From: Micromonosporaceae bacterium
GTDB taxonomy: Bacteria > Actinomycetota > Actinomycetes > Mycobacteriales > Micromonosporaceae
NCBI GenBank assembly: GCA_009377645.1
Contig: WHTQ01000028.1
Coordinates: 1 to 48,431 of the forward strand
Direction of reading: 5' to 3'
DNA: 48,431 bases
The position numbers and the translations under genes were made by a program. Under the pieces are notes generated by a model. That model had not been told where the DNA came from and made no database searches. It worked only from the letters and a program-made list of their open reading frames with translations. How positions within the stretch are numbered: position 1 is the first letter of the stretch; each line of letters begins with the position of its first letter. Shown one piece after another: positions 1,351 through 46,341 of this stretch.

Positions 1351-1353
1351 CTG

Positions 1354-1713: not shown

Positions 1714-1880
1714 CCAGGTTCTCCCAACTCGCGCAGGCCACTGCGGGCCGACCGACCGGGTCCCGCCGCACCGCCGCGCTCTGGCGGGGTGCAGACCCGA
1801 CGTTACCCGGTTGGACCGACATTTGCGCGCGGCCCGGGCCGGCCGGTGCTGGCGTGTCTCCCCCGCCCGGGGTCGCCCGG

Positions 1881-29553: not shown

Positions 29554-30318
29554 TCAGACCCGGGCCGCCCGCTGGTCGTCGGCGCGGGTGATGGCGATGT
29601 TGAAGGCGGCGACCAGCAGCAGCGCGACGATGATGTACGCGTAGAGCTCGGCCGTGCGGAACCCGCCCGAGCTGCTGGCGATCTGGTAGCCGATCCCCCG
29701 GGTCGACCCGAGGATCTCGCCGGCCAGCACGCCGATCAGGCACAGCGCCGCACCGATCCGCACTCCGGACAGCACCAGCGGGCGGGCCGCCGGGATCAGC
29801 ACGTTCGCCACCTGCTGGCGGCGGTTGGCGCCGAGCGACTCGGCCACGGTCAGGTAGCGGTTCGGGACGGTGGTCAGGGCCATCACCGTGGTGGCCGCGA
29901 CCGGGAAGAAGCCGTAGACGCCGCCGAAGACCACCTTGGACATCGGACCGATGCCGAACATCAGGATGCAGATCGGGTAGAACAGGATGATCGGCACGGT
30001 CTGCGCCCAGACCAGCAGCGGCGAGGCGATCCGGGCGGCCGGCCGCCATCGCCCGACCAGCAGCCCGACCGTCAGGCCGGCGATCGCGGCCAGCGTGAAC
30101 GCGCCCGCCACCTCCAGGGCGGTCACCCGCAGGTTCTCCCAGAAGCCGGCCTCCCGGACGATCTCCGGCAGCTGCGCCAGCACGTCCTCCGGCTGGGGCA
30201 GCAGGATCCGGGAGACCCGGCCCGGGCGGGACTGGTAGAACCACAGCCCGACCAGCACCGCGGCCAGGCCGAGCTGGATCGCGGCGACGGTCAGCAGCTC
30301 CTTGCGCCTGCTACGCAT
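29554..30318 (-). CDS. ABC transporter permease (NitT/TauT-type)
   Basis: 254 residues from the ATG at 30318, preceded by GGGGGA; a GTG at 30330 is in frame but lacks a ribosome-binding site. About six membrane helices are present. The permease EAA loop, which docks on the ATPase, reads SLGANRRQQVANVLIPAARP, followed by LAGEILGSTRGIGY, typical of nitrate/sulfonate/taurine-type importers. It overlaps the ATPase gene by eight bases. A second, dissimilar permease lies upstream, so the channel is probably a heterodimer. Confidence 0.9.
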   Translation of the reverse strand: MRSRRKELLTVAAIQLGLAAVLVGLWFYQSRPGRVSRILLPQPEDVLAQLPEIVREAGFWENLRVTALEVAGAFTLAAIAGLTVGLLVGRWRPAARIASPLLVWAQTVPIILFYPICILMFGIGPMSKVVFGGVYGFFPVAATTVMALTTVPNRYLTVAESLGANRRQQVANVLIPAARPLVLSGVRIGAALCLIGVLAGEILGSTRGIGYQIASSSGGFRTAELYAYIIVALLLVAAFNIAITRADDQRAARV

Positions 30319-31132
30319 CCAGTCCCCCACTCTGCATCTCGGCCAGCGCGGCGGCGCGTACCTCCTCGTGGAGCAGCTCGAACAGGCGGTTGCGGGTCTG
30401 GGTGAACTCCGGTGCGGTGGCGAAGCCGGACTCCCGCGGGCGGGCGGCGTCGACGGCCAGAATCTCCTTGACCCGCCCGGGCCGGGCCGACATCACCACC
30501 ACCCGGTCGGACAGGAAGACCGCCTCGCTCAGGCTGTGGGTCACGAACACGATCGTCTTGCCGGTCTTCTCCAGGATCCGGGCCAGCTCCTCGCCGAGCA
30601 CGGTGCGGGTCTGCTCGTCCAGCGCCCCGAACGGCTCGTCCATCAGCAGGATCTCCGGGTCCATGGCCAGTGCCCGGGCCACCGCCACCCGCTGCTGCAT
30701 GCCGCCGGACAGCTCGCCCGGGTAGGCGTCGGCGAACCCCCGCAGCCCTACCAGCTCCAGCTTCTCGGTCGCGATCTCCCGCCGCTCTCGCCGTCCGACC
30801 CCGCGGAACCCCAGCCCCACCTCCACGTTGGCGATGATCGTCCGCCACGGGAACAGGGTGTAGTCCTGGAACACGAACCCGACCTTCGTCGGCATCGGTC
30901 CGGTGACCCGCTGGCCGTCCAGGCTCACCTGGCCCGAGGACTGCCGGCGCAGCCCCCCGACGATGTAGAGCAGAGTGGACTTGCCGCAGCCGCTCGGTCC
31001 GATCAGGCTCAGGAACTCGCCGCGCCGCACGTCGAGGCTCACCGTGTCGAGCGCGTTCACCTGCTCGCCACGCTGGGTCTCGTACCACATCGACACGTCG
31101 CTGGCGGTGATCGCCGGCTCGGTCCTGGTCAT
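30311..31132 (-). CDS. ABC transporter ATP-binding protein (NitT/TauT-type)
   Basis: 273 residues from the ATG at 31132, which has TAAGGG five bases upstream; an ATG at 31153 is also in frame. It has Walker A GPSGCGKST, Q-loop VFQDYTLFPW, signature LSGGMQQR, Walker B ILLMDEPFGALDE and the H-loop VFVTHS, closely matching SsuB/TauB ATPases. It powers import of the ligand bound by the lipoprotein encoded upstream. It sits between two permease genes within a five-gene leftward block. Confidence 0.95.
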   Translation of the reverse strand: MTRTEPAITASDVSMWYETQRGEQVNALDTVSLDVRRGEFLSLIGPSGCGKSTLLYIVGGLRRQSSGQVSLDGQRVTGPMPTKVGFVFQDYTLFPWRTIIANVEVGLGFRGVGRRERREIATEKLELVGLRGFADAYPGELSGGMQQRVAVARALAMDPEILLMDEPFGALDEQTRTVLGEELARILEKTGKTIVFVTHSLSEAVFLSDRVVVMSARPGRVKEILAVDAARPRESGFATAPEFTQTRNRLFELLHEEVRAAALAEMQSGGLDA

Positions 31133-31171
31133 CGGTGCCCTTACTGTCTGCATTGCCGTCCCATCGGTCGT

Positions 31172-32011
31172 TCAGCCGGTGCGGCGCCACCGGCTGAGCC
31201 GCGCCTCCTGCCAGCGCCACAGCGAGCCGAGCAGGATCGCGAACAGTGCCATGCCGAACACCAGGGCGTAGACCCGGTCCGGGCGCAGCGTCGAGGAGTA
31301 GAGCCCGATGTAGTGGCCAATCCCCCGCTGCGAGGCGAACAGCTCCATGATCAGTACGCCCAGCAGCGCGTGCTTCATCCCGTACCACAGCCCGGTCAGC
31401 ACCGACGGGAGCGAGCCGGGCACGATCGCGGTGTGCAGCGCCTGCCACCGCGACGCCCCCATCGACCGCAGCGCCAGCAGCAGCCGGCGGTCGATCATGC
31501 CGACCCCGGCGGTCACGGTCACCGCGACCGGGAAGAAGCCGGACACCGCGCCGTAGGAAATCTTGGAGATCTCGGTGAAGCCGGCCAGCAGGATGAAGAT
31601 CGGGATGAAGATCATCTTCGGAGTCGAGAACAACCCGAGGACGGCCGGGTGGAAGACCCGGTAGGCCACTCGGGACAGGCCCATCGCGGCCCCGGCCAGC
31701 ACCCCGGCGGTTCCGGCGATCGCGAACGCCACCAGGAACATCCAGATCGCGGCGAGGAACGCGGCGCGTACCTCCGGCATAGTGGCCAGCTCCACCGCGG
31801 CGGCGGCGACCTGCGTGGGTGCCGCCGCGAACAGCGGGCTGAGCAGCTCCGCCCGCACCACCAGCTCCCAGCCGAGCAACCACACCGCGAGCACGGCGAC
31901 GATCCCGGCGACCGTGGCCCGGGACCGCGGCGCGGTGCGCCGCGGCCCCGGAGCCGCCGGGGGGCGGGTGGTCGCTTCCGCGGCCGTGCCTGCCGTCACG
32001 CCGGTGGTCAC
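31172..32011 (-). CDS. ABC transporter permease (NitT/TauT-type), second subunit
   Basis: 279 residues. The N-terminal ~28 residues are a polar cytoplasmic leader, followed by about six helices. The EAA loop reads SMGASRWQALHTAIVPGSLP and is followed by LIMELFASQRGIGHY. It differs clearly from the other permease in the operon, giving a probable hetero-dimeric channel. The GTG start comes seven bases after the binding-protein stop, with GATGAGG upstream. It belongs with the downstream ATPase and the upstream lipoprotein. Confidence 0.92.
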   Translation of the reverse strand: MTTGVTAGTAAEATTRPPAAPGPRRTAPRSRATVAGIVAVLAVWLLGWELVVRAELLSPLFAAAPTQVAAAAVELATMPEVRAAFLAAIWMFLVAFAIAGTAGVLAGAAMGLSRVAYRVFHPAVLGLFSTPKMIFIPIFILLAGFTEISKISYGAVSGFFPVAVTVTAGVGMIDRRLLLALRSMGASRWQALHTAIVPGSLPSVLTGLWYGMKHALLGVLIMELFASQRGIGHYIGLYSSTLRPDRVYALVFGMALFAILLGSLWRWQEARLSRWRRTG

Positions 32012-32018
32012 GGCAACC

Positions 32019-33029
32019 TCATCCGTCGACCGGTACGAAGCGGTCGTCCCAGAACACGTCGATGGCGGGCACCTCGTCGGCGATCCCCTGCTCCACCACC
32101 GACTGCGCCAGCCCTTCCAGGTTGGCCTGGGGGATGGTGCCGTCGGTGGAGAGGTTGTCGATGTCGTGGTCGTAGGTCTTCGCCGCCACGTTCTCGGACA
32201 CCTCGAACTCCTCGACCATCACCGCGACGGTCTCGTCCCGGTTGTCCTTCATGTGCCGGACGGTCTCGTACCAGCCCTCCAGGTAGGCCCGTACCGCGTC
32301 CTCGCGCTCGTCGATCGCCGGCTGGCTGGCGACGATGTCCTCGAACACGTTCTCGGTGACGATCTGGCCGAAGTCCAGCAGCACCTGCCCGCTGCCCTCC
32401 TCCTCGAGCGCGAACCCCGCCTCGACCGACCAGACGAACGCGTCGGTCGCGCCGGACTCCAGGGCGGCCAGCTGTTCCGAGAGGCCACCGATGTTGGCCC
32501 GCTGGATCGCGTCCTCCGGCCAGCCCTGGTGGACGGTGATGGTGCGGGCCAGATAGTCGGTCAGCGAGCCGGCCGACGTCACCCCCACCACCGTGTCCTG
32601 CAGGTCGTCGATGCTCTGGATGGCCGAGCCCTCCGGCACGACCAGCACCATCATCCGGAAGTCGGCGCCGATCAGTCCGACGATCTTCGACTCCACCCCG
32701 CTGAGGATCGCGTCCACTCCGGACGCTCCCGCGGTGACCCCGATGTCCGCCTCCCCGGCGGCGATCGCCTGCGCCACCTGCCCGCTGCCCTGCACGTAGA
32801 GGTTCTCGACCTGCAGGCCGCGCTCCTCCCAGACGCCCAGATCCAGGCCGAACTCGGCCGGAAGGAACTCGAAGGTCTGGGCGGTGCCGACGGCCACGGT
32901 GAGGGAGCCGAGGCCGTCATCGCCGGAACCGTCGCCGCCACCCCCGTCGCCGTCGCTGCCGCACCCGGCGGCCACCAGGGCCAGCGCGGCCAGTGCCGCC
33001 GCCAGGCCGAGCCGATGCTTGTCTGTCAT
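32019..33029 (-). CDS. ABC transporter substrate-binding lipoprotein (NMT1/SsuA-like)
   Basis: 336 residues. A lipoprotein signal peptide ends in the lipobox LVAAGC, with lipidated C23, followed by a Gly/Asp-rich linker of about 16 residues. The mature domain is of the NMT1/SsuA/TauA type (TVAVGTAQTFEFLPAEFGLD in part, then GEADIGVTAG). It is anchored outside the membrane and captures the ligand. Family ligands include sulfonates, pyrimidine precursors, nitrate and aromatic acids. The location beside ring-cleavage genes suggests an aromatic or heterocyclic ligand (inference). A 142-base gap separates it from the hydrolase gene upstream, so a separate promoter is possible. The ATG has GAGAGG upstream. 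Confidence 0.92.
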   Translation of the reverse strand: MTDKHRLGLAAALAALALVAAGCGSDGDGGGGDGSGDDGLGSLTVAVGTAQTFEFLPAEFGLDLGVWEERGLQVENLYVQGSGQVAQAIAAGEADIGVTAGASGVDAILSGVESKIVGLIGADFRMMVLVVPEGSAIQSIDDLQDTVVGVTSAGSLTDYLARTITVHQGWPEDAIQRANIGGLSEQLAALESGATDAFVWSVEAGFALEEEGSGQVLLDFGQIVTENVFEDIVASQPAIDEREDAVRAYLEGWYETVRHMKDNRDETVAVMVEEFEVSENVAAKTYDHDIDNLSTDGTIPQANLEGLAQSVVEQGIADEVPAIDVFWDDRFVPVDG

Positions 33030-34020: not shown

Positions 34021-34968
34021 TCACACGTCGAGGACCAAGGTGGGGGACTGCGAGCGGGACACGCACGGGTACATGAGCTTGCCCTCGCTCCGGTCGGCCG
34101 CCGACAGCAGCGAGTCCCGGTGCTCCGGTGTCCCCTCGATCACCCGGGTCTCACAGGTGCCGCAGATCCCTTCCCGGCACGCGCTCGGGATCCAGACCCC
34201 GACCTCCTCCAGCGCGTCCACGATCCGGACCCTCGGCGGCACCCGAACCGCGGCGCCGGAGCGCTGGCACACCACCTGGAAGCCGCGCTCCGGGCCGGCC
34301 GCCTCCGAAGCCGGCCGGGGCCGGAACCGTTCCAGCCGCAGGCTGCCGGCCGGCCATCCGGCGGCGCAGCGGGCCTCCGTCCCGGCCAGCATCGGCTCCG
34401 GGCCGCAACCGTAGACCAGCGTGTCCGGCGCCGGGGTGCCCAGCAGGGCGTCCAGGTCGGGCACCCCGGACCGGTCCGCGGGCACGATCTCGACCGGGTC
34501 GCCGAACGACTCCAGCTCGGCCAGGAACGCCATCGTCGCCCGGCGCCGCCCCCCGTACACCAGCCGCCACTGCCGCCCGGCGGCCGCCACCGCCCGGACC
34601 ATCGGCAGGATCGGGGTGATCCCGATCCCGCCGGCCAGGAACAGGTAGCGCGGCGACCAGTCGAGCGGGAAGTTGTTGCGTGGCCCGCCCACCCGCACCA
34701 GCTCGCCTGGCCGGAGTCGTTCGTGGACGTACGCCGAGCCGCCCCGGCTGTCCGCGGCCAGCAGCACCGCCACCTGGTAGCGGTCGCGGTCGGCCGGGTC
34801 GCCGCACAGCGAGTACTGCCGGACCTGCCCACCCACGTGCAGGTCCACGTGCGCCCCCGGCTCCCACGGTGGCAGCTCGCGCCCGTCCGGGTCGACCAGC
34901 ACCAGCGAGAGCACCTCTTCGCACTCCCACCTGAGCTGCCCGACCCGCAGCCGGCGCTCGCCGGTCAC
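34021..34968 (-). CDS. Flavin/2Fe-2S oxidoreductase, reductase of the Rieske oxygenase
   Basis: 315 residues from the GTG at 34968, which overlaps the C-C hydrolase stop (GTGA). Residues about 1-100 are a flavin-binding barrel with QYSLCGDP. Residues about 105-215 are an NAD-binding domain with LAGGIGITPILPM and VYGCGPEPML. The C-terminus is a plant-type ferredoxin with CREGICGTC and a late cysteine in YPCVSR. This is the phthalate-dioxygenase-reductase/VanB layout. It should pass electrons from NAD(P)H to the Rieske oxygenase encoded in the same operon. Confidence 0.92.
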   Translation of the reverse strand: MTGERRLRVGQLRWECEEVLSLVLVDPDGRELPPWEPGAHVDLHVGGQVRQYSLCGDPADRDRYQVAVLLAADSRGGSAYVHERLRPGELVRVGGPRNNFPLDWSPRYLFLAGGIGITPILPMVRAVAAAGRQWRLVYGGRRRATMAFLAELESFGDPVEIVPADRSGVPDLDALLGTPAPDTLVYGCGPEPMLAGTEARCAAGWPAGSLRLERFRPRPASEAAGPERGFQVVCQRSGAAVRVPPRVRIVDALEEVGVWIPSACREGICGTCETRVIEGTPEHRDSLLSAADRSEGKLMYPCVSRSQSPTLVLDV

Positions 34969-35822
34969 GGCGGGCCTTCGCCGCGCAGGAACGCGAGGTT
35001 GAGCCGGTTGAACCGGTCCGGGTGCTCGTGCTGCGGCCAGTGCCCGCACTCGCCGAAGATCTCCAGCCGGGAGCCCGGCACCGCCGCGTGCAACCGCTGC
35101 GCCTCCGGCACGTCCCCGAACGGGTTCTGGGCGCCCCACACGATCAGCGTGGGGGCGGCGATCCGGCCGAGCTGCTCCGGGGTCAGCAGGTCCGGCCGCC
35201 GGTTCTCCATCTCCTGTAGACAGAGCAGCCGCGGCAACGCTGCCCGGAACTGCGGCCGGTGGTAGATCTCGTGCCGGATCGCGACCAGCTCGTCGCTGAC
35301 GTCCTTGGCCGGGTCGTGCATCAGCAGCTCCAGGCGCTCGCGGGTCAGCGCGATGTCGTCGCTGGTCACCGCCGCGGTGGTGCTGGTCTTGATCCGTTCC
35401 ATCACGGCCGGGTTGGCCACCGTGCCTCCCGGCGCGACCAGGGTGAGCCGTTCCACCCGGTCCGGGTGGTCGCTGGCCACCCGCGCCGCCACCCAGCCGC
35501 CGAGCGACTCACCCACCAGATGCGCCCGCTGCACCCCCACCGCGTCGAGGTAGTCGAGCAGGTGCGCCACGTACCGGCCGATCCGGTACGGGAAGTCGCC
35601 GCCGTCGGTGTAGCCGTGGCCGAGCATGTCCAGCGCGTGGCAGCTGAAGTGGCGCGCGTGTGCGGGAAGGTTGCGTACGAACGCCTCCAGGTGCCCGCTG
35701 GTGCCGTGCAGGAACACCACCGGGTCCCCGGAACCGGCCCGCAGGGTGCGGGTCCGCAGCCCGCCGGCGTTGACGAAGTCGACCCGGAACGGCAGGTCGG
35801 CGAGCTCGGTCCAGATGGTCAT
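34965..35822 (-). CDS. Alpha/beta hydrolase, meta-cleavage-product (C-C bond) hydrolase-like
   Basis: 285 residues. The nucleophile is S106 in VGESLGGW, and the histidine is H261 in GECGHWPQHEHPDRFNRL. The motif before it, VFLHGTSGH, forms the oxyanion hole. The position of the usual catalytic aspartate reads VWGAQNPFGD, with N233 and a nearby D237. Relatives (MhpC, BphD, CarC) hydrolyse 2-hydroxy-6-oxo-dienoates made by extradiol dioxygenases. The start overlaps the dioxygenase stop (ATGA), which supports sequential action. The exact substrate is unknown. Confidence 0.82.
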   Translation of the reverse strand: MTIWTELADLPFRVDFVNAGGLRTRTLRAGSGDPVVFLHGTSGHLEAFVRNLPAHARHFSCHALDMLGHGYTDGGDFPYRIGRYVAHLLDYLDAVGVQRAHLVGESLGGWVAARVASDHPDRVERLTLVAPGGTVANPAVMERIKTSTTAAVTSDDIALTRERLELLMHDPAKDVSDELVAIRHEIYHRPQFRAALPRLLCLQEMENRRPDLLTPEQLGRIAAPTLIVWGAQNPFGDVPEAQRLHAAVPGSRLEIFGECGHWPQHEHPDRFNRLNLAFLRGEGPP

Positions 35823-36784
35823 GCCAGGCCCTCCAGTTCGGACGAACGGCCGTGGTCGGGCTCGACCAGCGCCACCGCCATGCCGGTCAGCCACTCGGGG
35901 ATCGGCGCGTACGCGAGGGTGGTCCCGCGCGACGGCCCGATCGCCGCCGCCATGGTGAGCCAGGAGCGGATCTCCTGCCCGCCGTTGCCCGCCTCCGCCT
36001 CCACTCGGTCGTTGTCGTAGCCGGTGAGCTCCGCCAGCCGCCCGCCGGTCAGCAGCGCCAGGAACCGCCGGTCGAACTCCTCGTTGATGTCCGGCTCGGC
36101 GGCCCGGATGATCTCGCGCCGCCGCACCTCGTACTCCTGCCAGGAGTGTCTGCCGTGGACCCACGCCTCGACCAGGAACCGGTCGTCGTCAGAGAAGGTC
36201 GCGAACCACTTCGGCCACGGCAGCCGGTGGGACAGCCCGCCGGAGGCGATCACCGCCACCCGCTTGCCGGCGCCGTCGGAGCCGACCGCCCGCGCCAGCG
36301 CCTGCCCCAGCGCCCAGCACCGCCGCAGCGACGGCAGCGGCGGCGCGAACATGTTCAGCACCACCGGCAGGATCGGCACGTCCAGCTCCGGCAGCAGGTG
36401 CTGGAGGCTGTGGGTGATGCCGTGGTCGACCTGCAGCCGCAGCGAGAAGGCGGCGTCGAACTCCTCCCGTAGCAGCGAGCTGGTCACGTGCCGGGCCAGG
36501 TCGGTGTCGACCGGCAGCGGGCCGGCCGGGGTGCCGGCCTCCCCCGCCCCGACGCACTCCCCGACGCCGATCGTGATGGCGGGCATCAGATCCAGGAACA
36601 TGCCGCGGAAGTGGTTCGACCCGATCACGATCACCGCGTCCGGGTCGGCCGCGGCGAGCCGGTCGCGGGCGTCCGACAGCCCCTGCCGGAACCGTTGCGC
36701 CGGCTCCTGTCCGGCGACCTCGTGCCAGTGGGTGTTCATCAGGGTGCTGTGCGACGCACCCACCCCGAGCATCAGCGAGCTCAC
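35819..36784 (-). CDS. LigB-type (class III) extradiol ring-cleavage dioxygenase
   Basis: 321 residues from the GTG at 36784, with GGGAGGAACA just upstream. Expected Fe(II) ligands are H12 (GASHSTL) and H58 (GSNHF), plus a glutamate in the EPDINEEFDRR region. A catalytic histidine is seen as H186 (SGGLSHRLP). The LQVDHGITHSLQHLL stretch is typical of LigB, MhpB and 3-O-methylgallate dioxygenases. It opens a catechol-like ring next to the two hydroxyls. It is encoded between a 48-residue protein and a C-C hydrolase, with overlapping starts and stops on both sides, and upstream of the Rieske reductase. Confidence 0.88.
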   Translation of the reverse strand: MSSLMLGVGASHSTLMNTHWHEVAGQEPAQRFRQGLSDARDRLAAADPDAVIVIGSNHFRGMFLDLMPAITIGVGECVGAGEAGTPAGPLPVDTDLARHVTSSLLREEFDAAFSLRLQVDHGITHSLQHLLPELDVPILPVVLNMFAPPLPSLRRCWALGQALARAVGSDGAGKRVAVIASGGLSHRLPWPKWFATFSDDDRFLVEAWVHGRHSWQEYEVRRREIIRAAEPDINEEFDRRFLALLTGGRLAELTGYDNDRVEAEAGNGGQEIRSWLTMAAAIGPSRGTTLAYAPIPEWLTGMAVALVEPDHGRSSELEGLA

Positions 36785-36927
36785 TGTTCCTCCCTCGGCG
36801 TGTCCGGCCGCTCGGTCCGCACCACGGTTCCGGTGGTCCGCAGCAGCAGCCAGCCGAGCCACCGCCGCACCGGCGGCAGTGACCCGACCACGGCGAGGCC
36901 CACCACCACCGCTCCGCTCACCAGCAC
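36781..36927 (-). CDS. 48-residue small membrane-like protein of the ring-cleavage operon
   Basis: GTG at 36927 is preceded by GGGGAG with a six-base spacer. The frame is open for 48 codons and its TGA overlaps the GTG of the dioxygenase (GTGA), the same coupling used by the neighbouring genes. It starts 17 bases after the Rieske gene. Residues about 2-18 (LVSGAVVVGLAVVGSLP) and 24-29 are hydrophobic, with Arg/Trp between; the C-terminus is charged (ERPDTPREEQ). This suggests a small membrane or membrane-surface protein. Without it the operon would have an unexplained 160-base gap. I do not recognise a family; it could tether or stabilise the oxygenase. Confidence 0.6.
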   Translation of the reverse strand: MLVSGAVVVGLAVVGSLPPVRRWLGWLLLRTTGTVVRTERPDTPREEQ

Positions 36928-36943
36928 GCGTCGCTCCCCGCGC

Positions 36944-38143
36944 TCACTTCAGCCGGACGGCGGGCGCGGGCCGCGGCGGCTCCTGGACGGCCGGCTGGGC
37001 CTTCTCGAGCATCCGGCGCCAGGCCGTGATCGACACGTCCGGGCGGTAGAGCCGCTCCGGCGGCGCGTCGGTCACGTCGACCATCCACGCGTCCTGCCGG
37101 GTGAACTGGCCGTGGAACAGCCAGCGGATGGCGGCCAGATAGGACACCTTGAACAGCGCCGCCCGCAGCCCGGTCTCGAACCGCACCATGATCTGCACGT
37201 ACCGCACGTGGTCGGCGTCGACCGGCACGTACCACTCGTAGTGGATGAACTTCGGGTACGCGACCCGGAGCAGCCCGGGCAGCCGGATCGACACGAACCC
37301 GGGGATGTTCATCGCGTCGATGACCGGGTTGACCCGCTTCCCCTTGCCGGGCCGGTCCGGCAGCGGGGTACGCCGCCACCAGCGCTTGTTGGTCCACACC
37401 CCGAGCCCGGGATACTCCGCCTCCCAGTGCAGCTCGTCCTGCACCCGGACCAGCCACGGGCCCTCCTGCGAGACCCGGGTCCGGTTCCAGGCCGGCATCA
37501 CCTTGAACAGCCGCCACAGGGCGGTGTTGTGCAGATACTTGGCGTGCCCCTCGTCGAACCCGTTCTCGGCCGCGAACCGCCAGTTGCCGTTGCGGATGTC
37601 GCTGCGCCCGCCCATCACGAACCGGTTCTCGACCAGCTCGGCGGGGACGTCCCGCTCCACCGGCGGGACCGGCCCGTCGCCCAGGTAGACCCAGACCAGG
37701 CCGAGCCGCTGCGCCACCGGGTAGGTGCGCACCTTGAGCCGGCCGCAGATCGGCGAGTCCGGGCCGTCGGTGAGCACGGCGCACAGGTCTCCACTGTCGA
37801 GCTTGAAGGTCCATCCGTGGTAGACGCAGCTCAGCGTGCCCGGGAACTGCCGCCGTCCCAGCGACAGCGGCACCCCGCGGTGCGGGCACCGGTCGTGCAG
37901 CGCGTAGATCTGGTCGCCCTCCCGCACCAGTGCGATGTCCTCGCCGAGCAGCCGGACCGGCAGCGGCTTGCGGCCCACCCGCCCCGCCCATTGCACCGGG
38001 TACCAGTAGTTGCGCAGGCCGTGGGTGGCGCTGTGGTAGGTCGGCCAGCTCGACCAGTCCTGACCGGCGTGAGTCGGCGCCGGCCCGTCGGGTGTGTCGT
38101 GCTGCCAGGCGGGTGGCGCGGTATCGGACAGGTTCGTGGTCAT
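36944..38143 (-). CDS. Rieske non-heme iron oxygenase, terminal component (CarAa/oxoquinoline-monooxygenase-like)
   Basis: 399 residues. The Rieske 2Fe-2S site is C86-x-H88 and C106-x2-H109. The mononuclear iron ligands are H200 and H205 (FDEGHAKYLH) with D350 (TRQDAWMV), and D197 links the centres. The N-terminal HGLRNYWYPV, RLLGEDIALVR and the ENGFD motif recall carbazole 1,9a-dioxygenase CarAa and 2-oxoquinoline 8-monooxygenase (from memory of those sequences). Such alpha-only oxygenases attack N-heterocycles or diaryl compounds. No small beta subunit is present. The reductase is encoded four genes downstream. The ATG overlaps the stop of the amidohydrolase gene (ATGA). Confidence 0.88.
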   Translation of the reverse strand: MTTNLSDTAPPAWQHDTPDGPAPTHAGQDWSSWPTYHSATHGLRNYWYPVQWAGRVGRKPLPVRLLGEDIALVREGDQIYALHDRCPHRGVPLSLGRRQFPGTLSCVYHGWTFKLDSGDLCAVLTDGPDSPICGRLKVRTYPVAQRLGLVWVYLGDGPVPPVERDVPAELVENRFVMGGRSDIRNGNWRFAAENGFDEGHAKYLHNTALWRLFKVMPAWNRTRVSQEGPWLVRVQDELHWEAEYPGLGVWTNKRWWRRTPLPDRPGKGKRVNPVIDAMNIPGFVSIRLPGLLRVAYPKFIHYEWYVPVDADHVRYVQIMVRFETGLRAALFKVSYLAAIRWLFHGQFTRQDAWMVDVTDAPPERLYRPDVSITAWRRMLEKAQPAVQEPPRPAPAVRLK

Positions 38144-38823
38144 GGTCCCTCCATCCAGCCGGTAGCGTCGTCGAGCTGCACCACGTCCGCGTACTTGGCG
38201 TCCATCTCGTACAGGCTGACCGCGGCGGACAGCCGGGACCGGTCGAACACCGCCTGCTCCACCACGAAGGTGGCGAACCCGTGCGAGAAGGCGTCCACCA
38301 CCGTCGCCCGTACGCAGCCGGAGGTGGTGCATCCCGCGACCACTACGCTGTCGACCGGCAGCGAGTGCAGGTAGGTGGCGACCGGGGTATGGAAGAACGC
38401 GCTCGCCCGGGGCTTGGCCACCACCAGCTCGCCGTCCCGCGGCGCGGCGGCCGGCAGGAACTCGACCGCCCCGGGCCGGCCGCCGGCGAACTCGCCATCC
38501 AGCTCGCCCTTGACGGTCGGGCCGAGCAGCCGGGCGTCCGCCCCGAGCGGCCGCAGGTGGACCACCGGCACTCCGCCGCGCCGGGCCGCCGCCAGCAGCC
38601 GCCCGATCGCCGGCAGCGCCGCGTGCGCCGCCGGCCCGCACGCGCCCGGCCACTGCGCGACCGCGGTGGGCAGGTCCACATCGGGCGGACCCACGAAGCA
38701 GCTGACCACGTCGACCACCAGCAGCGCCGGCCGCCGGCCACGCTGCTGGCGGTGGCGGAACGAGCGGTACGCGAGCGCGTCGTCGCCCTCGAAGACCCGC
38801 TCCCACCAGCGCAGCTCGCTCAC
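38140..38823 (-). CDS. Isochorismatase-fold cysteine hydrolase (N-carbamoylsarcosine/maleamate amidase-like)
   Basis: 227 residues from the GTG at 38823, which overlaps the M20-like gene's stop (GTGA). The catalytic triad is D38 (LLVVDVV), K137 (VVAKPRASAFFHT) and C170 (GCTTSGCVRATVVDA). The TTSGCVRAT motif and the KxxASAFxxT loop match N-carbamoylsarcosine amidase and maleamate amidase rather than isochorismatase proper. It should hydrolyse a small amide or carbamoyl compound and release ammonia. In a nitrogen-heterocycle pathway this would be the step that frees the ring nitrogen (inference). Confidence 0.87.
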   Translation of the reverse strand: MSELRWWERVFEGDDALAYRSFRHRQQRGRRPALLVVDVVSCFVGPPDVDLPTAVAQWPGACGPAAHAALPAIGRLLAAARRGGVPVVHLRPLGADARLLGPTVKGELDGEFAGGRPGAVEFLPAAAPRDGELVVAKPRASAFFHTPVATYLHSLPVDSVVVAGCTTSGCVRATVVDAFSHGFATFVVEQAVFDRSRLSAAVSLYEMDAKYADVVQLDDATGWMEGP

Positions 38824-40169
38824 CCGCAGACCTCCTCGCGCGGGCGGGTGAGCGCGTCGACGGTGGCGGCGACCAGCAGCCGGGTCAGCCGCACCAGGTT
38901 CGGCACTGACGCCGCGTTCATCCCCATCGGAAAGTCGACCTCCGCGCCGTCCGGGTCGGCCACCCGCGGCATCCCGATCCGGGCGGTCGGGATGCCCCGG
39001 TTGCGCAGGATGTTGCCGTCGGTGGCGCCGCTGGTGGTCCGGGCGGCCTCGTCCAGCTCGTGCTGGGCGCCGGTGACCTGCTCCCAGGCGCGGATGCAGG
39101 ACTGGACGATCCACGCGTCCGGCGGCGTGGCACTGCCCGGGATGGACAGGGTCAGCTCGCAGCTGGACTCGATCCCGAGCCGCTGGCTCGCCTCGGCCAC
39201 CGCGGCGGCGAACTCCCGGTGCGCCTGCACCGGGCGGGTGCGGGGGCTGATCCGCAGGTCCACAGTGAACTCGCACACCGCCGGGCAGATCGCCGCCGTC
39301 CGCTGCCAGCCGCCGCGCACCGAGGCCACGTGGCCCTGCGGGGCGACCAGCCCGGAGGTGTGGCGGGCGGTGTACTCCGGGAACCACCGCTCCAGCTCCC
39401 CGATCAGCCGGGCGGCGTCGACCACCGGGTTCCGGTAGGGCAGTCGCTGCCGGCTGCCGACGTAGTTGTACGTGCCGAAGACCCGGACCGTGAACCAGCA
39501 CAGGCCCACTTCCTCCCAGGACACCGACCAGCCGGGCTTGGCGAGGATCGCGTGGTCGGCCTGCACGCCCTGCTCCAGCAGGAACGAGCAGCCGTTGCCC
39601 TGCCCGGAGTTGGCCCGGTCCACGTACCCGTCGCGCCGGTTGGTCGGCATCCCACCGGCGCCCAGCCCCACCAGCAGCGACCCGCGCAGCGGGAGGCCGG
39701 CGGCGGCGACCGCCTCCGCCGCGGCGACCACGCAGGCGGCGTGCCCCTTCGGGTTGCTCGCTCCCAGGCCCACCACCCGGTCGCCCTGGAGCACCCCTTC
39801 CGGGCGCAGGTCCGGCCGCAGCCGGGGGCCGACCTGCGGCACGTCCTCCGCCTCGGTGCCGACCGTGAGCGTGTCGATCGGGGCGTAGAGCAGCAGGTCG
39901 GCGCCGGTCCCGTCGCCGGCCAGCCGGCCGACCGCGTTGCCCTGACGGGCGTCGATCTCCTGGTACGCCGCGGCCAGCCCGGCGCCGGCGAGCCGGCGGG
40001 TGAGGAGCTCGGCCAGCGCCCGTTCGTCGCCGGTCGGGCTGGGGATCGAGACCATCGCCAGCAGCAGGTCCCGCAGCCGGGTCTGGTCGATCTGGCCCCA
40101 GGCCCGCTGGGTCGCCGCGGTGGGGCGGGGCGGCGCCCCGCCGGGAGCGGATCGGCGGCTCATGCGCAC
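38820..40169 (-). CDS. M20-family-like protein lacking canonical metal ligands
   Basis: 449 residues with M20 topology (SIPSPTGDERALAELLTRRL start, lid-type middle domain, TSGATDGNILRNRGIPTARIG in parts near the end). The HxD motif reads APIDT (97-99), the bridging aspartate is N139 (GASNPKG), and the DEE segment is replaced by GAGGMPT. Metal-dependent peptidase activity is therefore doubtful; binding, regulatory or novel catalytic roles are open. It is the first gene of the long leftward operon. An ATG two codons inside (40163) is an alternative start; neither has a clear ribosome-binding site. It is a distant paralogue of the 20630-21907 protein. Confidence 0.72.
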   Translation of the reverse strand: MRMSRRSAPGGAPPRPTAATQRAWGQIDQTRLRDLLLAMVSIPSPTGDERALAELLTRRLAGAGLAAAYQEIDARQGNAVGRLAGDGTGADLLLYAPIDTLTVGTEAEDVPQVGPRLRPDLRPEGVLQGDRVVGLGASNPKGHAACVVAAAEAVAAAGLPLRGSLLVGLGAGGMPTNRRDGYVDRANSGQGNGCSFLLEQGVQADHAILAKPGWSVSWEEVGLCWFTVRVFGTYNYVGSRQRLPYRNPVVDAARLIGELERWFPEYTARHTSGLVAPQGHVASVRGGWQRTAAICPAVCEFTVDLRISPRTRPVQAHREFAAAVAEASQRLGIESSCELTLSIPGSATPPDAWIVQSCIRAWEQVTGAQHELDEAARTTSGATDGNILRNRGIPTARIGMPRVADPDGAEVDFPMGMNAASVPNLVRLTRLLVAATVDALTRPREEVCG

Positions 40170-40327: not shown

Positions 40328-41125
40328 ATGATCGACCCGGCGTTCACGCCCCACTATGCCCGCACCCGGGACGGGCTGGTGCACTACGTGGAGCTGGGCG
40401 CGGGCGACCCGCTGGTCCTGCTCCACCAGACCCCCCGGTCCTGGGACGAGTTCCGCGAGCTGATGCCGCTGCTGGCCGACCGGCACCGGGTGATCGCCCC
40501 GGACCTGATCGGGTTCGGCGCCTCCGAGCGGATCGCCGACCACTCGATCGAGCGGTACGCGGGCTCGGTGGTGGCGCTGCTGGACGCGCTCGACCTCCCC
40601 CAGGTGGACCTGCTCGGGCACCAGATGGGCGGGATCGTGGCCGTCGAGGTGTCCGCCCGGGTTCCCGAGCGGGTCCGGCGGATGGTGCTGTCCGGCACCC
40701 CGTACGTGGACGAGGCGTTCCGCCGGCGGCGGCCGGGCATGCACCCGCTCAGCCTGGTCGAGCTGCAGGACGACGGCCGGCACCTGACCGAGATCTGGGT
40801 CCGGCGCAGCGGCTTCTACCCACCGGCCCGGCCGGACCTGCTGGACCGGTACGTGCGGGACGTGCTGCTGCAGGAGGACCAGGCCGAGGAGGGCCACCGG
40901 GCGATCAGCGGCTACCGGATGGAGGGCCGCACCACCTACCGCGGACCGCTGCTGTGCCTGGGCGCCACGGCGGACCCGGTCGCGTTCCCGGAGGTGCCCC
41001 GGTTGGTCGAGCAGTTCCCGCAGAGCCGGCTGGAGATCGTGCAAGGGGGGATGGTGCCGCTGATGGAGCACATGCCCGAGGAGGTGGCTGCGATCGTCAC
41101 GAAGTTCTTCGACGAGCAGGCGTAG
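40328..41125 (+). CDS. Alpha/beta-hydrolase-fold protein with missing catalytic Ser and His
   Basis: 265 residues with a clear alpha/beta hydrolase fold: LVLLHQTPRSWDEF, APDLIGFGASE and LDALDLPQVDLLG. The nucleophile elbow reads G97-H-Q-M-G101 instead of GxSxG, and codon CAG confirms glutamine Q99. The catalytic histidine position reads GGMVPLMEH (M242). Only the acid region (ATADPVAF, D216) remains. It is probably not a classical hydrolase; a ligand-binding sensor, a cofactor-free oxygenase-like or lyase role, or an inactive scaffold are possibilities. The ATG has GAGG seven bases upstream. An IclR gene follows 17 bases later on the same strand. Confidence 0.85.
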   Translation: MIDPAFTPHYARTRDGLVHYVELGAGDPLVLLHQTPRSWDEFRELMPLLADRHRVIAPDLIGFGASERIADHSIERYAGSVVALLDALDLPQVDLLGHQMGGIVAVEVSARVPERVRRMVLSGTPYVDEAFRRRRPGMHPLSLVELQDDGRHLTEIWVRRSGFYPPARPDLLDRYVRDVLLQEDQAEEGHRAISGYRMEGRTTYRGPLLCLGATADPVAFPEVPRLVEQFPQSRLEIVQGGMVPLMEHMPEEVAAIVTKFFDEQA

Positions 41126-41946: not shown

Positions 41947-41970
41947 GCCTGGCCCGTTAGCCCTGGCTCA
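41944..41970. terminator. Short hairpin shared by convergent iclR and P450 stop codons
   Basis: TGAGCC (41944-41949) and GGCTCA (41965-41970) pair across 15 bases. The left arm begins with the iclR stop and the right arm ends with the P450 stop. The stem is only six bases, so termination strength is uncertain. Confidence 0.3.
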
Positions 41971-43245
41971 TCCCGCGTCGTTGTCCGGCACGGCCGAGGA
42001 AACCGACACCGGCAGCGCCTCGAGGCCACGCAACAGGGCGCTGTTCTCCCACCGGAGCTGCCCCGGATCGACGGCGAGCCGGAGGTCCGGGTACCGGGTC
42101 AGCAGCCGGGTCAGCGCGATCTCGATCTGCAGCTTGGCCAGCGGGACCCCGATGCAGTAGTGGATGCCGTGCCCGAAGGCCATGCTGCCCACCGGGCGCC
42201 GGTTCAGGTCGAGCCGGTCCGGGTCGGGGAAGTGCGCGCTGTCGCGGTTGGCGGAGCTCCAGGACAGCGCCAGAATCTGATCGGCCGGGATGACCACGTC
42301 GCCGACCTGGATCTCCTCGGTGGTGAACCGGAAGGTCCCGACCGAGGCGGCCGGGTCGAAGCGCATCAGCTCGTCCACGGCCGCGGGCATCGAAGACAGG
42401 TCCGCCCGCAGCCTGGCCAGCTCGTCGGGGTGGGTCAGCAGGTTGTAGACCGCGTTGCCGATCGAGTAGATGGTGGTGATGTGGCCGGCGACCACCAGGA
42501 AGAAGATCATCGACACGAGCTCGCCGTGGGTCAGCCGGTCGCCGTCGTCGGTGACCCGCACCAGGGCGCTGACCATGTCGTCACCTGGGTTGGCGCGCTT
42601 GGCATCGATGAGCGCGCTCGCGTAGTCGACCACCTTCTTCGATGCGTCGGCCACCTCCTCCGGATCCTGGCCCGCGCCGACCAGCTTGGTGCCCCACAGC
42701 CGGAAGTCCTCGCGATCCGCTTGCGGGATCCCGAACAGGTCGCAGATGATGGTGATCGGCAGGCGCACTGCGAACTCGCTGACCAGCTCGACCTCCGGCT
42801 TGCCGGCGAACGAGTCCAGCAGCTCATCGGCCACCTGCTCGATGCGGGGGCGCAGCCGCTCCACCCGCTGCGCGGTGAACGCCTTGCTCACCAGCGCGCG
42901 CAGGCGGGTGTGGCGCGGAGGATCGCTGTTGAGCATGTGGGTGGCGAGGTCGTCGTCGAACCCGACGCTGGCCGCCTCCTCCCCCGGTTCCCCTTCCTGC
43001 TCAACGAAAGCGCCGGAGTGGCGGGCGAACAGCTCGTTCATCCGCCGCCCGTCCTTGCTGACGCGCGGGTCGGACACCAGCGCGCGGATCTCGTCGTACC
43101 GGGTGACCAGCCACGCTCGGGCGCCATGCGCGAACGTGACCTCGTGGACAGGACCCATGTCCCGAAAGGCTTTTAGGATCTCGTACGGGTTCTGCATCAA
43201 GTCCTCGGGAACCCGCTCGGTCGGCTGTGAGGATCCGGCTTGCAT
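41968..43245 (-). CDS. Bacterial cytochrome P450 (class I, CYP105/107-like) with atypical I-helix
   Basis: 425 residues from the ATG at 43245, which has AAGGAG nine bases upstream; the frame is open to 43428 but lacks another good start. The heme loop reads FGHGIHYCIGVPLAKLQ with the ligand cysteine. ELMR is the ExxR motif, and SDPPRHTRLR precedes the B-C region. The I-helix reads VVAGHITTI, where the usual acid before threonine is isoleucine. It needs ferredoxin and reductase; an FprA-type reductase gene lies nearby, but no ferredoxin gene was seen. It is divergent from an MFS gene with inverted repeats between. The substrate is unknown. Confidence 0.93.
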   Translation of the reverse strand: MQAGSSQPTERVPEDLMQNPYEILKAFRDMGPVHEVTFAHGARAWLVTRYDEIRALVSDPRVSKDGRRMNELFARHSGAFVEQEGEPGEEAASVGFDDDLATHMLNSDPPRHTRLRALVSKAFTAQRVERLRPRIEQVADELLDSFAGKPEVELVSEFAVRLPITIICDLFGIPQADREDFRLWGTKLVGAGQDPEEVADASKKVVDYASALIDAKRANPGDDMVSALVRVTDDGDRLTHGELVSMIFFLVVAGHITTIYSIGNAVYNLLTHPDELARLRADLSSMPAAVDELMRFDPAASVGTFRFTTEEIQVGDVVIPADQILALSWSSANRDSAHFPDPDRLDLNRRPVGSMAFGHGIHYCIGVPLAKLQIEIALTRLLTRYPDLRLAVDPGQLRWENSALLRGLEALPVSVSSAVPDNDAG

Positions 43246-43555
43246 GATCAGATGCTCCTTGCTGCGGTCGCTGACGGTTCGCTCACGATTGCCTTTCGTC
43301 ATGAGAGGCGGGCCGCGGCGGCCCCTGATACAGTCACGAGGACTCGATACGTCGATGCCCGGTCGAGTCATTCGTATGACAGCCCGTCGAACCGCTCCCA
43401 CCGAGCTGCCGTCACGCCGCCGTATCAAGAACCACTCTCATCCGCCTCTCATGAGACAAGGGATCGTGGTGCGGACCGTAGCCAGCCTCCCCGCAGGAGC
43501 CTCCGACCGACGGCCACGGCCGGCACCGGGCTCGACGACCTAAGGCGGATCACGC
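43246..43555. promoter_or_regulatory. Divergent control region between P450 and MFS genes
   Basis: 310 bases without a convincing gene. TCATGAGAGGCGG (43299-43311) recurs as its exact complement at 43442-43454, and the second copy extends to the palindrome TCTCATGAGA. Between them GACTCGA (43341-43347) and TCGAGTC (43363-43369) form a further dyad. This arrangement suggests one regulator bound at symmetric sites controlling both genes, perhaps with looping. No regulator gene is adjacent. Promoter hexamers could not be assigned with confidence. Confidence 0.5.
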
Positions 43556-44839
43556 ATGAGCAGTGAGACCACAGCCGATGACGCACCGGCCGAGGAGGCC
43601 GCGACCGGTCCCCTGGGTGTTCTGGCCACCTGGCGCCATACGCCTGGTCCGGTGAAGGCGGTCCTGGCTGGCGTGTTCGTCAACCGGCTGGGCGGCTTCC
43701 TGCAGATCTTCCTGGTGCTGTTCCTCACCGATCGGGGATACACCTCGAGCCAGGCCGGCCTGGCGCTAGGGCTGTACGGCGCCGGCGCGGTGGCCGGCAC
43801 CTTCGCGGGCGGCTGGCTGAGCGACCGGCTGAGCGCGCGGACGGTGACGCTGATCAGCATGATGGGCTCGGCGCTGCTGCTCGTCGCGATCCTCTACTTC
43901 AAGGTTTACCTCCTGCTTCTGCTGGTCGCGATCCTGGTGGGCGCCGTCAGCCAGCTCTACCGGCCGGCCGCCCAAGCCATGGTCACCGAGCTCACTCCGG
44001 TCAGCCGGCTGGTGATGGTGACCGCGATGTACCGGCTGTGCCTGAATCTGGGCACCACGGCAGCGCCGCTGATCGGAGTGGCGTTGGCGTCGGTCTCGTA
44101 CGACCTGCTCTTCTGGGCCGAGGCGCTGGCCGCCCTGACCTACGGCCTGATCGCCCTGGTCGCCTTGCCGCGGGGGCGCCGGGTGCGCCCGTCGGCTCCC
44201 GAGCAGGCCCAGGAGCGACCGCCCCGTTCCGGGTATCTGGCCCTCCTGGACGACTGGCGATACCTGGTGTTCCTGGCCGCCTTCCTGCTGCTGTGCGTCG
44301 TCTACTCCCAGTACACAGCGGCCCTGCCACTGGCCATTGTGGGCGCCGGGCTCAGCACGTGGTGGTACGGCGCGGTCGTCACGGTCAACGCCTTCATCGT
44401 CGTGACCTGCGAGGTGGTGGCGACCAGGTGGGTACAGACCTGGCCGCTGCGGCTGACCCAGATGAGCGGCTTCGCCCTCCTCGCGATCGGGTACGGCATC
44501 TACGCGATCGACATGATCCCGCTCTTCCTGATCCTCGGCACCCTGGTGTGGACGCTCTCCGAAATCATCGGTGCGCCAACCATCTATGCCTATCCGGGTT
44601 TGGTCGCCCCCGCGCACCTGCGGGGTCGGTACTTCGGTGCCATGCAGGGCATGTTCGGCCTGGGCTCCACCCTCGGCCCGATCCTCGGAATCGCCCTGTT
44701 CGAACGGGTCGGCCAACAGATGTTCATGTGGGCGGCCCTGGTGGCGGTCCTGGCCACGGTGATCGGCCGGGTCGGCATGCGGGGCACGCAGAAGCCCGAC
44801 CCGGCACCGGAACCGGCCGCCAGCCAGCCGGCCGGCTAA
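43556..44839 (+). CDS. MFS transporter (drug-efflux-like)
   Basis: 427 residues with 12 predicted membrane helices. Motif A reads GWLSDRLSART between helices 2 and 3, and a second-half equivalent is LRGRYFGAMQGM. The central cytoplasmic loop (about 205-225) is polar, and the ends are charged or Pro/Ala-rich. Layout and motif A fit proton-coupled exporters of the DHA1 type. The ATG has AAGGCGG upstream. Divergence from a P450 with shared operators suggests export or import of the P450's substrate or product. Ligand unknown. Confidence 0.87.
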   Translation: MSSETTADDAPAEEAATGPLGVLATWRHTPGPVKAVLAGVFVNRLGGFLQIFLVLFLTDRGYTSSQAGLALGLYGAGAVAGTFAGGWLSDRLSARTVTLISMMGSALLLVAILYFKVYLLLLLVAILVGAVSQLYRPAAQAMVTELTPVSRLVMVTAMYRLCLNLGTTAAPLIGVALASVSYDLLFWAEALAALTYGLIALVALPRGRRVRPSAPEQAQERPPRSGYLALLDDWRYLVFLAAFLLLCVVYSQYTAALPLAIVGAGLSTWWYGAVVTVNAFIVVTCEVVATRWVQTWPLRLTQMSGFALLAIGYGIYAIDMIPLFLILGTLVWTLSEIIGAPTIYAYPGLVAPAHLRGRYFGAMQGMFGLGSTLGPILGIALFERVGQQMFMWAALVAVLATVIGRVGMRGTQKPDPAPEPAASQPAG

Positions 44840-44849
44840 CGACAGCCGC

Positions 44850-44864
44850 ACCGGCCCGCCCGGC
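44850..44864 (+). terminator. GC hairpin after the MFS gene
   Basis: GCCCGCC and GGCGGGC form seven-base inverted arms around one base, so the functional stem is about six pairs with a three-base loop. It starts 11 bases after the MFS stop. There is no T-tract. Confidence 0.4.
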
Positions 44865-44958
44865 GGGCGTGACCGTGGCATGACACCGGGTTACAACCCC
44901 CATGTCGGCACGATCCGCCCGCCCGCGTCCGGGCGGCGCGCCGGGCGTGGGACGGGTG

Positions 44959-44988
44959 GTGACAACTCGCCGCCGATTGGGCGACGAT
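44959..44988 (+). promoter_or_regulatory. Candidate leaderless promoter of the ferredoxin reductase gene
   Basis: GTGACA (44959-44964, five of six TTGACA bases) and GACGAT (44983-44988) are separated by 18 bases, and the ATG follows six bases after the second hexamer. This spacing places the transcription start at the start codon. No Shine-Dalgarno spacing is available, because AGGG touches the ATG. Confidence 0.4.
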
Positions 44989-44994
44989 CTAGGG

Positions 44995-46341
44995 ATGGGT
45001 GAGCTGCGGGTGGCCGTCATCGGGTCCGGGCCGGCCGGCGTGTACGCGGCCGGTGCGCTGCTCGACGCCGGCCAGCCGGTCAGCGTGGACATCTTCGACG
45101 CGCTGCCCGCGCCGTTCGGGCTGGTCCGGTACGGGGTCGCGCCCGACCACCCGAAGATCAAGTCGGTGTCCGAGAAGCTCGCGGAGATCCTCGCCGCCCC
45201 GCAGGCACGCTTCTTCGGCCACGTTGCCTACGGCACCGACCTGACCGCGGCGGACCTGCGGCGGCACTACCACGCCGTGATCCACGCGGTGGGATCGGCG
45301 AACGAGCGCGAGCTCGGCATCCCCGGCGAGGAGCTGGCCGGCAGCTTCGCCGCGGCCGACTTCGTCGCCTGGTACAACGGGCACCCGCACGCGGCCGACC
45401 AGCGGTTCCTCGCCGCGCCGGAGGTGGCCGTGGTCGGCGCCGGCAACGTGGCGCTGGATGTCGCCCGGATGCTGGTCACCTCGGCCGACGCGCTGGTCGC
45501 GACCGACCTGCCGGCCGGCGTGCTGCAGGCGTGGCGGGGCAACCAGGCCACCGACGTGCACCTGCTGGCCCGGCGGGGTCCGGCCCACGCGAAGTTCACC
45601 ACCCCGGAGCTGCGTGAGCTGGCCAGGCTCGACGGGGTCGACCTGGTGGTCGACCCGGCCGACCTTGAGCTCGATCCCGCCAGCGCGCAGATCCTCGAGC
45701 ACGACCGGGTGGCGGCGCGCAACGTGACCGTCCTGCGGGACTGGGTCGCGCGTCCGCGCACCGGCGCGCCCCGCCGCGTCCACCTCCGGTTCTGGACCCG
45801 CCCGACCCGGATCGTCGGGAACGGTCGGGTGGCGGGCGTACAGGTCGAGCGCACCACCCTGGACGGGACCGGACGACTGGCCGGCACCGGCGCCACCGAG
45901 CAGCTGGCCGCCCAGGCCGTGTTCCGGGCGATCGGGTACGCGGGCCGGCCGCTGCCCGGGCTGCCGTTCGACCAGACCAGCTCGGTCGTGCCGAACGAGG
46001 CAGGGCGGGTGACCGGCCCGGACCAGACCGGCGTGTACGTCGCCGGCTGGATCAAGCGCGGGCCGACCGGTGTGATCGGCACCAACAAGAGCGACGCCGC
46101 CGAGACCGTACGCACGCTGCTGGCCGACGCACCGAAGCTCACCAGCCCACCCGAGCCTGACCCGGCCGCCGTCCTGGCGACCCTCGAGCGGGCGGGCGGG
46201 CGGTACCTCCAGTGGGACGAGTGGTTGCGGGTCGACGACCACGAGACCCGCGAGGGGGCGCGGCACGGCCGGCCGCGCGTGAAGGTCTGCACGGTGCAGG
46301 AGATGCTCGACATCGGTGGCGTCCGGGCTCCGGACGGCTAG
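44995..46341 (+). CDS. fprA: FprA-type NADPH-ferredoxin reductase (adrenodoxin reductase family)
   Basis: 448 residues. The N-terminal FAD Rossmann motif is VAVIGSGPAGVYAAG, followed by RYGVAPDHPKIK, a family signature. The NADP site is VVGAGNVALDVARML, and the C-terminal FAD contact is GWIKRGPTGVIGTNKSDA. It closely follows the layout of mycobacterial FprA. It transfers electrons from NADPH to ferredoxin, which can serve cytochromes P450, so a link with the P450 1.7 kb away is plausible. No ferredoxin gene is seen beside it. The frame is open upstream to 44902, but family similarity begins at 44995. Confidence 0.93.
   Translation: MGELRVAVIGSGPAGVYAAGALLDAGQPVSVDIFDALPAPFGLVRYGVAPDHPKIKSVSEKLAEILAAPQARFFGHVAYGTDLTAADLRRHYHAVIHAVGSANERELGIPGEELAGSFAAADFVAWYNGHPHAADQRFLAAPEVAVVGAGNVALDVARMLVTSADALVATDLPAGVLQAWRGNQATDVHLLARRGPAHAKFTTPELRELARLDGVDLVVDPADLELDPASAQILEHDRVAARNVTVLRDWVARPRTGAPRRVHLRFWTRPTRIVGNGRVAGVQVERTTLDGTGRLAGTGATEQLAAQAVFRAIGYAGRPLPGLPFDQTSSVVPNEAGRVTGPDQTGVYVAGWIKRGPTGVIGTNKSDAAETVRTLLADAPKLTSPPEPDPAAVLATLERAGGRYLQWDEWLRVDDHETREGARHGRPRVKVCTVQEMLDIGGVRAPDG

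Follow-up and report, generated by a model that had tools for sequence, protein, structure and literature searches.

The present analysis shows that an overlooked minus-strand frame between the genes of a Rieske oxygenase and an extradiol dioxygenase is almost certainly a genuine protein gene, the decisive support coming from its homologues in related loci. The frame lies in the window, by which we mean the whole 48,431-nucleotide stretch of Micromonosporaceae DNA analyzed here, and its product is a short protein with a hydrophobic N-terminus and a conserved tail. We give about an even chance to the proposal that this membrane-type protein is a dedicated accessory subunit, tethering or assisting the carbazole-dioxygenase-like Rieske oxygenase.

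Small Gene and Its Neighbors in the Window

The gene (36,781–36,927, minus strand) runs from a GTG start at 36,927 to a TGA stop and encodes a protein of 48 residues, MLVSGAVVVGLAVVGSLPPVRRWLGWLLLRTTGTVVRTERPDTPREEQ. The initial annotation had described this 48-codon frame without naming the strand; it is present on the minus strand, the plus-strand reading of the same positions being interrupted by a stop codon. The well-spaced GGGGAG ribosome-binding site that had been claimed can likewise be read in the sequence, at 36,934–36,939 (minus strand), 6 nt before the GTG. The Rieske stop codon occupies 36,944–36,946, leaving a spacer of 16 nt to the start of the small gene. At the other end, the GTGA overlap with the next gene was correctly described: at 36,781–36,784 (minus strand) the TGA of the small gene overlaps the GTG start of the LigB-type gene, and a GGGAGG read at 36,789–36,794 (minus strand), within the last codons of the small gene, is the presumed ribosome-binding site of the LigB-type gene. 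The isochorismatase/Rieske and LigB/HydA junctions are 4-nt overlaps too, in the form of ATGA.

The open length of the frame is unremarkable. Among 20,000 random 163-base sequences with the dinucleotide make-up of the window, read in the three forward frames, 46% contain a start-led open run of at least 44 codons, and the length alone is therefore no evidence for a gene. The G+C content per codon position (0.78/0.55/0.90) looks coding, resembling that of four neighboring genes (0.69–0.79/0.47–0.57/0.90–0.96), and a model of A-type homologues (defined below) built without the window matches the gene at E 1e-14.

The upstream neighbor is the Rieske oxygenase gene (36,944–38,143, minus strand), whose product resembles carbazole 1,9a-dioxygenase and matches PF00355 and PF11723 above their cut-offs; the protein thus carries both the Rieske domain and the homotrimeric ring hydroxylase domain by which we recognize the CarAa type, and CarAa proteins are its best sequence matches among solved structures. 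Downstream, on the same strand, lie the genes of a LigB-type extradiol dioxygenase (35,819–36,784; PF02900; nearest NCBIfam model 3-carboxyethylcatechol 2,3-dioxygenase, under its cut-off), an alpha/beta hydrolase termed HydA (34,965–35,822; nearest NCBIfam model HsaD, under cut-off), and an NAD-binding/2Fe-2S reductase (34,021–35,070, start uncertain). On the far side of the Rieske gene, again on the minus strand, are an isochorismatase-family hydrolase (38,140–38,820; PF00857) and an ArgE/DapE-like, M20-type hydrolase (38,820–40,169), which matches TIGR01910 of NCBIfam at E 1e-17, under cut-off, and has no Pfam match at E 0.001. A further alpha/beta hydrolase, Hyd2, is divergently encoded at 40,328–41,125 (plus strand). 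Judged from these neighbors, the cluster appears to encode a meta-cleavage pathway that includes amide-type hydrolases.

The genes of an NMT1-type ABC transporter (ATPase, permease, and binding protein) lie at 30,311–33,029, on the same strand and downstream of the catabolic genes, and may encode a substrate importer. Near the M20 end of the cluster, genes for a cytochrome P450, an MFS transporter, and a pyridine-nucleotide oxidoreductase are found at 41,968–46,341. Very long opposite-strand frames, such as that at 36,488–38,374 (plus strand), shadow the Pfam-supported genes, as is expected from the G+C content of 73%.

Occurrence in Related Loci

A Rieske scan with one genome per species gave 135 confirmed stretches, the best 80 of which were analyzed; these carry actinobacterial names throughout, and no close relative was found among plasmids at E 1e-60. 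An intact small open reading frame of 33–56 residues, with the same build and near cluster genes, is present in 77 of these best 80 loci. The copies were chosen with tail-motif patterns and with start codons set by the analyst, so the conservation of the motif is partly a product of selection; a TQ(V/I)(H/R)R tail was, however, already seen in 42 loci in a listing of gap frames made without a motif filter. Leave-one-out models, from which the tested locus and its near copies were excluded and which had to return the gene as top match at E < 1e-3, confirm 74 of the 77 copies (18/20 of A type, 43/43 of B type, and 13/14 of C type), the best competing frame across these loci reaching E 0.009. The other three (L022, L031, and L032) are intact as judged by eye and by position, the L032 gene scoring well solely with a model that includes itself (as L094).

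The three loci lacking an intact copy differ from one another. In L041 the small gene is split by a frameshift, its halves lying in different frames, and the best Rieske and M20 matches on the same contig are likewise shortened. L073 reads as a deletion of the cluster past the first codons of the small gene, while in L072 the tail motif is found on the C-terminus of the Rieske protein itself.

The gene order of the window (M20, isochorismatase, Rieske, gap, LigB, hydrolase, reductase) recurs in L008, L009, and L058, and in each of them the gap encodes a homologue with a TTGTVVR tail. The initial annotation had named stops or frameshifts in loci of the same order as the sign that would speak against the gene; the frame is open in all three. 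The slot between the Rieske and extradiol dioxygenase genes is seen in these loci and the window only. In the other loci the small gene follows either the Rieske gene or an alpha/beta hydrolase gene of the cluster.

Spacing and topology were measured in 70 of the 77 copies, the remaining seven having no recognized upstream neighbor. Counted from the upstream stop to the start of the small gene, the gap has a median of 2 nt (n = 70; the values for L042 and L018 are artefacts of the automatic setting of gene ends). In 16 of the 70 the start overlaps the upstream stop by 1–4 nt. A Shine-Dalgarno pattern, liberally defined, precedes the gene in 70/70.

Selection and Tail Subtypes

The dN/dS comparison across homologues that had been suggested for this gene points to purifying selection. 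With Nei-Gojobori-type counts over 51 of the 77 genes, arranged in 12 close groups defined by the analyst and with within-group pairs that are not independent, the pooled dN is 0.080 and dS 0.277, a ratio of ~0.29; differences at codon positions 1/2/3 number 489/336/1004. The ratio of single groups spans 0.20–0.81. The highest value belongs to four Actinomadura genes and may be inflated, because their start was set seven codons upstream of the usual one; two other small groups give 0.66 and 0.58.

Three subtypes with a shared build and place can be told apart by their tails: A, that of the window, with TGTVVR; B with TQVHRINQ; and C with GTTVR. In the window protein the motif, TTGTVVR, occupies residues 31–37 (36,817–36,837, minus strand), and T34, V36, and R37 are invariant across 17 aligned A-type sequences. 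Conservation in the B type is concentrated in the tail, the mean pairwise identity of 34 proteins of 38 residues being 91% at positions 31–38, compared to 57% at positions 19–30 and 59% at positions 2–18. By profile comparison, A is connected to B at a probability of 83% (E 9e-6) and to C at one of 79% (E 2e-5, over 13 columns), with no direct link between B and C; a single origin of the three subtypes is likely but not proven by these profiles. Two variants were also noted: the frame at 1,468–1,986 (minus strand) of L089 has TQVHRINQ followed by 11 further residues, and that at 1,321–1,614 (plus strand) of L090 has a TQVHQVRP tail, so the motif does not always stand at the very end.

Mapped onto a tree of 81 Rieske proteins, the subtype (three states) requires 2 changes, the minimum possible, whereas the position of the small gene (after the Rieske or after the hydrolase gene) requires 5. 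The subtype labels were assigned by the analyst; L022, L031, L072, and L073 received no label, and the frameshifted L041 was assigned to C. Making the four unlabelled rows a group of their own raises the number of changes to 6. The small protein thus appears to relocate within the cluster and yet to keep with its Rieske lineage. Such a pattern indicates association rather than contact, since inheritance of the whole cluster would look alike. According to their strain names, one strain contributes two distinct Rieske loci in each of the pairs L012/L056, L049/L058, and L052/L073; the first two pairs combine a locus of subtype A with one of subtype B, and each of these loci has a small gene of its own.

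Topology and Predicted Structure

AlphaFold2 models the small protein of the window as two helices followed by a coil tail, with a mean pLDDT of 70.3, a pTM of 0.29, and zero residues at pLDDT 90 or above. The first helix (residues 2–16; 36,880–36,924, minus strand) is hydrophobic and presumed to be transmembrane. The second (residues 18–32; 36,832–36,876, minus strand) contains Arg and Trp and perhaps lies at the membrane surface, given an interfacial character judged by eye.

The same build is seen in the homologues. The best 17-residue mean hydropathy is at least 1.47 in 70/70 and at least 1.6 in 68/70 copies, a count that leaves out the window protein itself, and in 70/70 the hydrophobic stretch is followed by more Lys and Arg residues than precede it (means 5.0 vs 1.2). 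The positively charged flank of a membrane segment faces the cytosol, according to the positive-inside rule, and the excess of Lys and Arg after the stretch therefore places the tail in the cytosol. We infer from these features that the protein sits in the membrane with its tail inside the cell.

Association with the Rieske Oxygenase

Among the best 80 of the 135 stretches, the Rieske gene is found in 80, the small gene in 77, M20 in 71, HydA in 65, LigB in 62, and the reductase in 35, the enzymes having been sought by tblastn with the proteins of the window only, the small gene by tailored motifs and models, and some of the stretches being shortened by contig ends. That the Rieske oxygenase appears to be the best partner is partly a matter of selection, because the loci were collected through it, and a separate scan of the class was made for this reason. 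It covered 345 genomes, with thresholds of E 1e-60 or better for the Rieske protein and E 0.001 or better for the small protein; the latter was sought with models A1 and A2, leaving aside the C-type A3, and with ~21–22 candidates scored per genome, so that misses are possible. The Rieske protein is found in 6 and the small protein in 7 of the 345 genomes, five being common to both, including the window's own. The small gene is accordingly present in 5 of the 6 Rieske genomes and in 2 of the 339 others. The matches in these two (L091 and L092) are weak; they fall within long frames (394 and 448 codons), and no cluster gene occurs in their 3 kb.

Model A1 contains rows taken from G000 and G224, which makes the finds in G407, G410, and G465 more independent; the small gene of G465 is ~2 kb from the Rieske gene, on the same strand. 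The sixth Rieske genome, G206, has the most distant Rieske protein (54% identity) and no match to the small gene in its 4.1-kb locus. In a set of 151 relatives, which largely repeats loci among the best 80 of 135, six genomes have the Rieske gene; five of these also carry the small gene, whereas G045 has a fusion.

The proposal in the initial annotation of a small membrane protein in an oxygenase operon is therefore borne out in part: the 77 loci, the dN/dS ratio, and the class scan strongly support that the protein is real, overlooked, membrane-type, and tied to the cluster. Its placement has to be restated: the tie is to the Rieske cluster generally, and the Rieske/extradiol slot is the arrangement of the window and three loci only.

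The fusion just mentioned is found in L072, from Dactylosporangium siamense (L072:5001–6200; the same stretch is contained in L006 and L100), where no separate small gene was found. Compared to the 25 other aligned proteins, the Rieske protein here is longer by at least 12 residues at its C-terminus, the last residues being FRRTQVHRVRP; it retains the tail motif without the hydrophobic helix. For the tail, a B-type model gives E 3e-4 in L006, a 4.1-kb copy of the locus, but only 0.056 in the search across all loci. Among 7 genomes of the genus no further fusion was found, and only G045, which is the same locus, has the gene. AlphaFold2 models the L072 Rieske protein with a mean pLDDT of 67.5, residues 374–399 of the tail being below 50. 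If the apparent fusion is what it seems, this single case places the motif physically on the Rieske oxygenase. It also means that a pure tether would not be the whole story, because the motif is there kept without the helix.

Comparison with Known Systems

Pfam has no match for the window protein and three of its relatives, NCBIfam gives nothing significant for the same four (E 0.08–0.1 only), and PHROGs has no family for the window protein. The family, which thus has no entry in Pfam or NCBIfam, resembles the CydX type in build and genetics. Excerpts of PMC4325964 describe CydX (37 aa) as encoded in the operon of its enzyme, co-varying with the enzyme subtype, and variable in sequence apart from a few conserved residues, and an excerpt of PMC6005532 describes it as a single hydrophobic helix. 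Like CydX (and CydY and CydZ), the small protein is short, is encoded with an enzyme, and tracks the subtype of that enzyme, here the Rieske oxygenase; with 33–56 residues it is also predicted to be dominated by one hydrophobic helix. It is unlike the CydX-like subunits in having no homology to a described small-subunit family in Pfam or NCBIfam.

Rieske oxygenases of the CarAa type are treated as soluble multicomponent enzymes. The enzyme that the small protein accompanies is thus of a kind taken to be soluble, whereas CydX belongs to a membrane oxidase.

By sequence, the large neighboring gene is of the CarAa/2-oxoquinoline 8-monooxygenase type. The CarAa systems of pCAR1 and pCAR3 nevertheless differ from the cluster of the window, the 9-kb stretches around these more distant CarAa genes containing no such small gene. 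They do have a small gene between the CarAa-type Rieske gene and a larger ring-cleavage gene, which we take to be CarBa, of the carbazole meta-cleavage enzyme, and this placement is like that in the window. CarBa, however, has 90–93 residues and, by eye, no hydrophobic N-terminus, compared to the 48 residues of the window protein, and in 57/70 loci the next recognized gene after the small one is M20 and not LigB. A shrunken CarBa/LigA-type subunit was considered and rejected on the grounds of an hhalign probability of 0.1 against two CarBa proteins, the lack of a Pfam match, and the limitation of LigB adjacency to the window, L008, L009, and L058.

Proposed Role and Alternatives

In the mechanism that we propose, the N-terminal hydrophobic helix would lie in the membrane with the N-terminus outside, and the short, positively charged second helix would be on the cytosolic side. 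The flexible cytosolic tail, which carries the conserved motif (TGTVVR, or TQVHRINQ or GTTVR in relatives), would bind the oxygenase or a partner standing beside it, and the helix would hold the catabolic enzymes at the membrane near the incoming aromatic substrate, or would stabilize them. How the protein sits in the membrane, what its tail binds, and whether it tethers or assists are all inferred. Anchoring or assisting would fit the charge pattern, the conserved tail, and the one fusion of the tail to a Rieske protein.

An alternative partner, the alpha/beta hydrolase or the M20-type enzyme of the cluster, is improbable but deserves to be weighed. The small gene follows a hydrolase gene in 19 and is followed by M20, as the next recognized gene, in 57 of the 70 measured loci, as might be expected if it served one of these enzymes rather than the Rieske oxygenase. 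However, 9 of the best 80 of 135 stretches, some of which are shortened by contig ends, gave no M20 match, the neighboring hydrolases differ in kind (that of L011, for example, has 31–39% identity to the three of the window), and the sole fusion seen is to the Rieske protein.

Somewhat less probable still is a link between the catabolic enzymes and a substrate transporter, or a modulation of transport. The NMT1-type ABC transporter encoded downstream in the window would be a candidate, and AcrZ and, in an excerpt of PMC10903887, KdpF are precedents for small membrane proteins acting on transporters. In the window, however, the small gene has no transporter gene as a direct neighbor.

We consider it rather unlikely that the protein serves the assembly or stability of the oxygenase, CydX-like in effect, with the membrane helix being incidental. 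The tail of the B type is far better conserved than its helix, and the L072 fusion dispenses with the helix altogether, both of which would agree with such a role; the hydrophobic stretch with the same charge pattern in 70/70 measured copies argues against an incidental helix.

It is very improbable that the frame is non-functional as a protein, that is, a chance frame, a translational coupler, or a leader peptide: although 46% of random sequences hold such frames and the stop/start overlaps suggest coupling, there is purifying selection on the residues, model support in 74 of the best 80 of 135 loci, and relocation to other junctions. A chance frame is accordingly rejected on comparative grounds despite the unremarkable open length, and a leader peptide or coupler on the dN/dS of ~0.29 and the five changes of position on the Rieske tree.

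Returning to the accessory subunit, a more specific version of it, which we regard as possible though less than evenly probable, is that a family of actinobacterial Rieske oxygenases of the CarAa type forms a membrane-recruited system, in which a dedicated single-helix subunit of 33–56 residues docks on each oxygenase with its conserved cytosolic tail and so draws the enzyme to the membrane. A search of the titles and abstract beginnings of open-licence literature found no account of a small membrane protein of Rieske oxygenases; if the membrane-recruited system is real, it would add to the Rieske non-haem iron oxygenases a type of subunit for which the literature searched has no account. The presence of a small membrane-type partner in nearly all related clusters examined suggests a missing component of the Rieske system. 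Such a component could explain poor activity of these Rieske enzymes when they are expressed without it, and it would make the membrane organization of this kind of aromatic catabolism directly testable.
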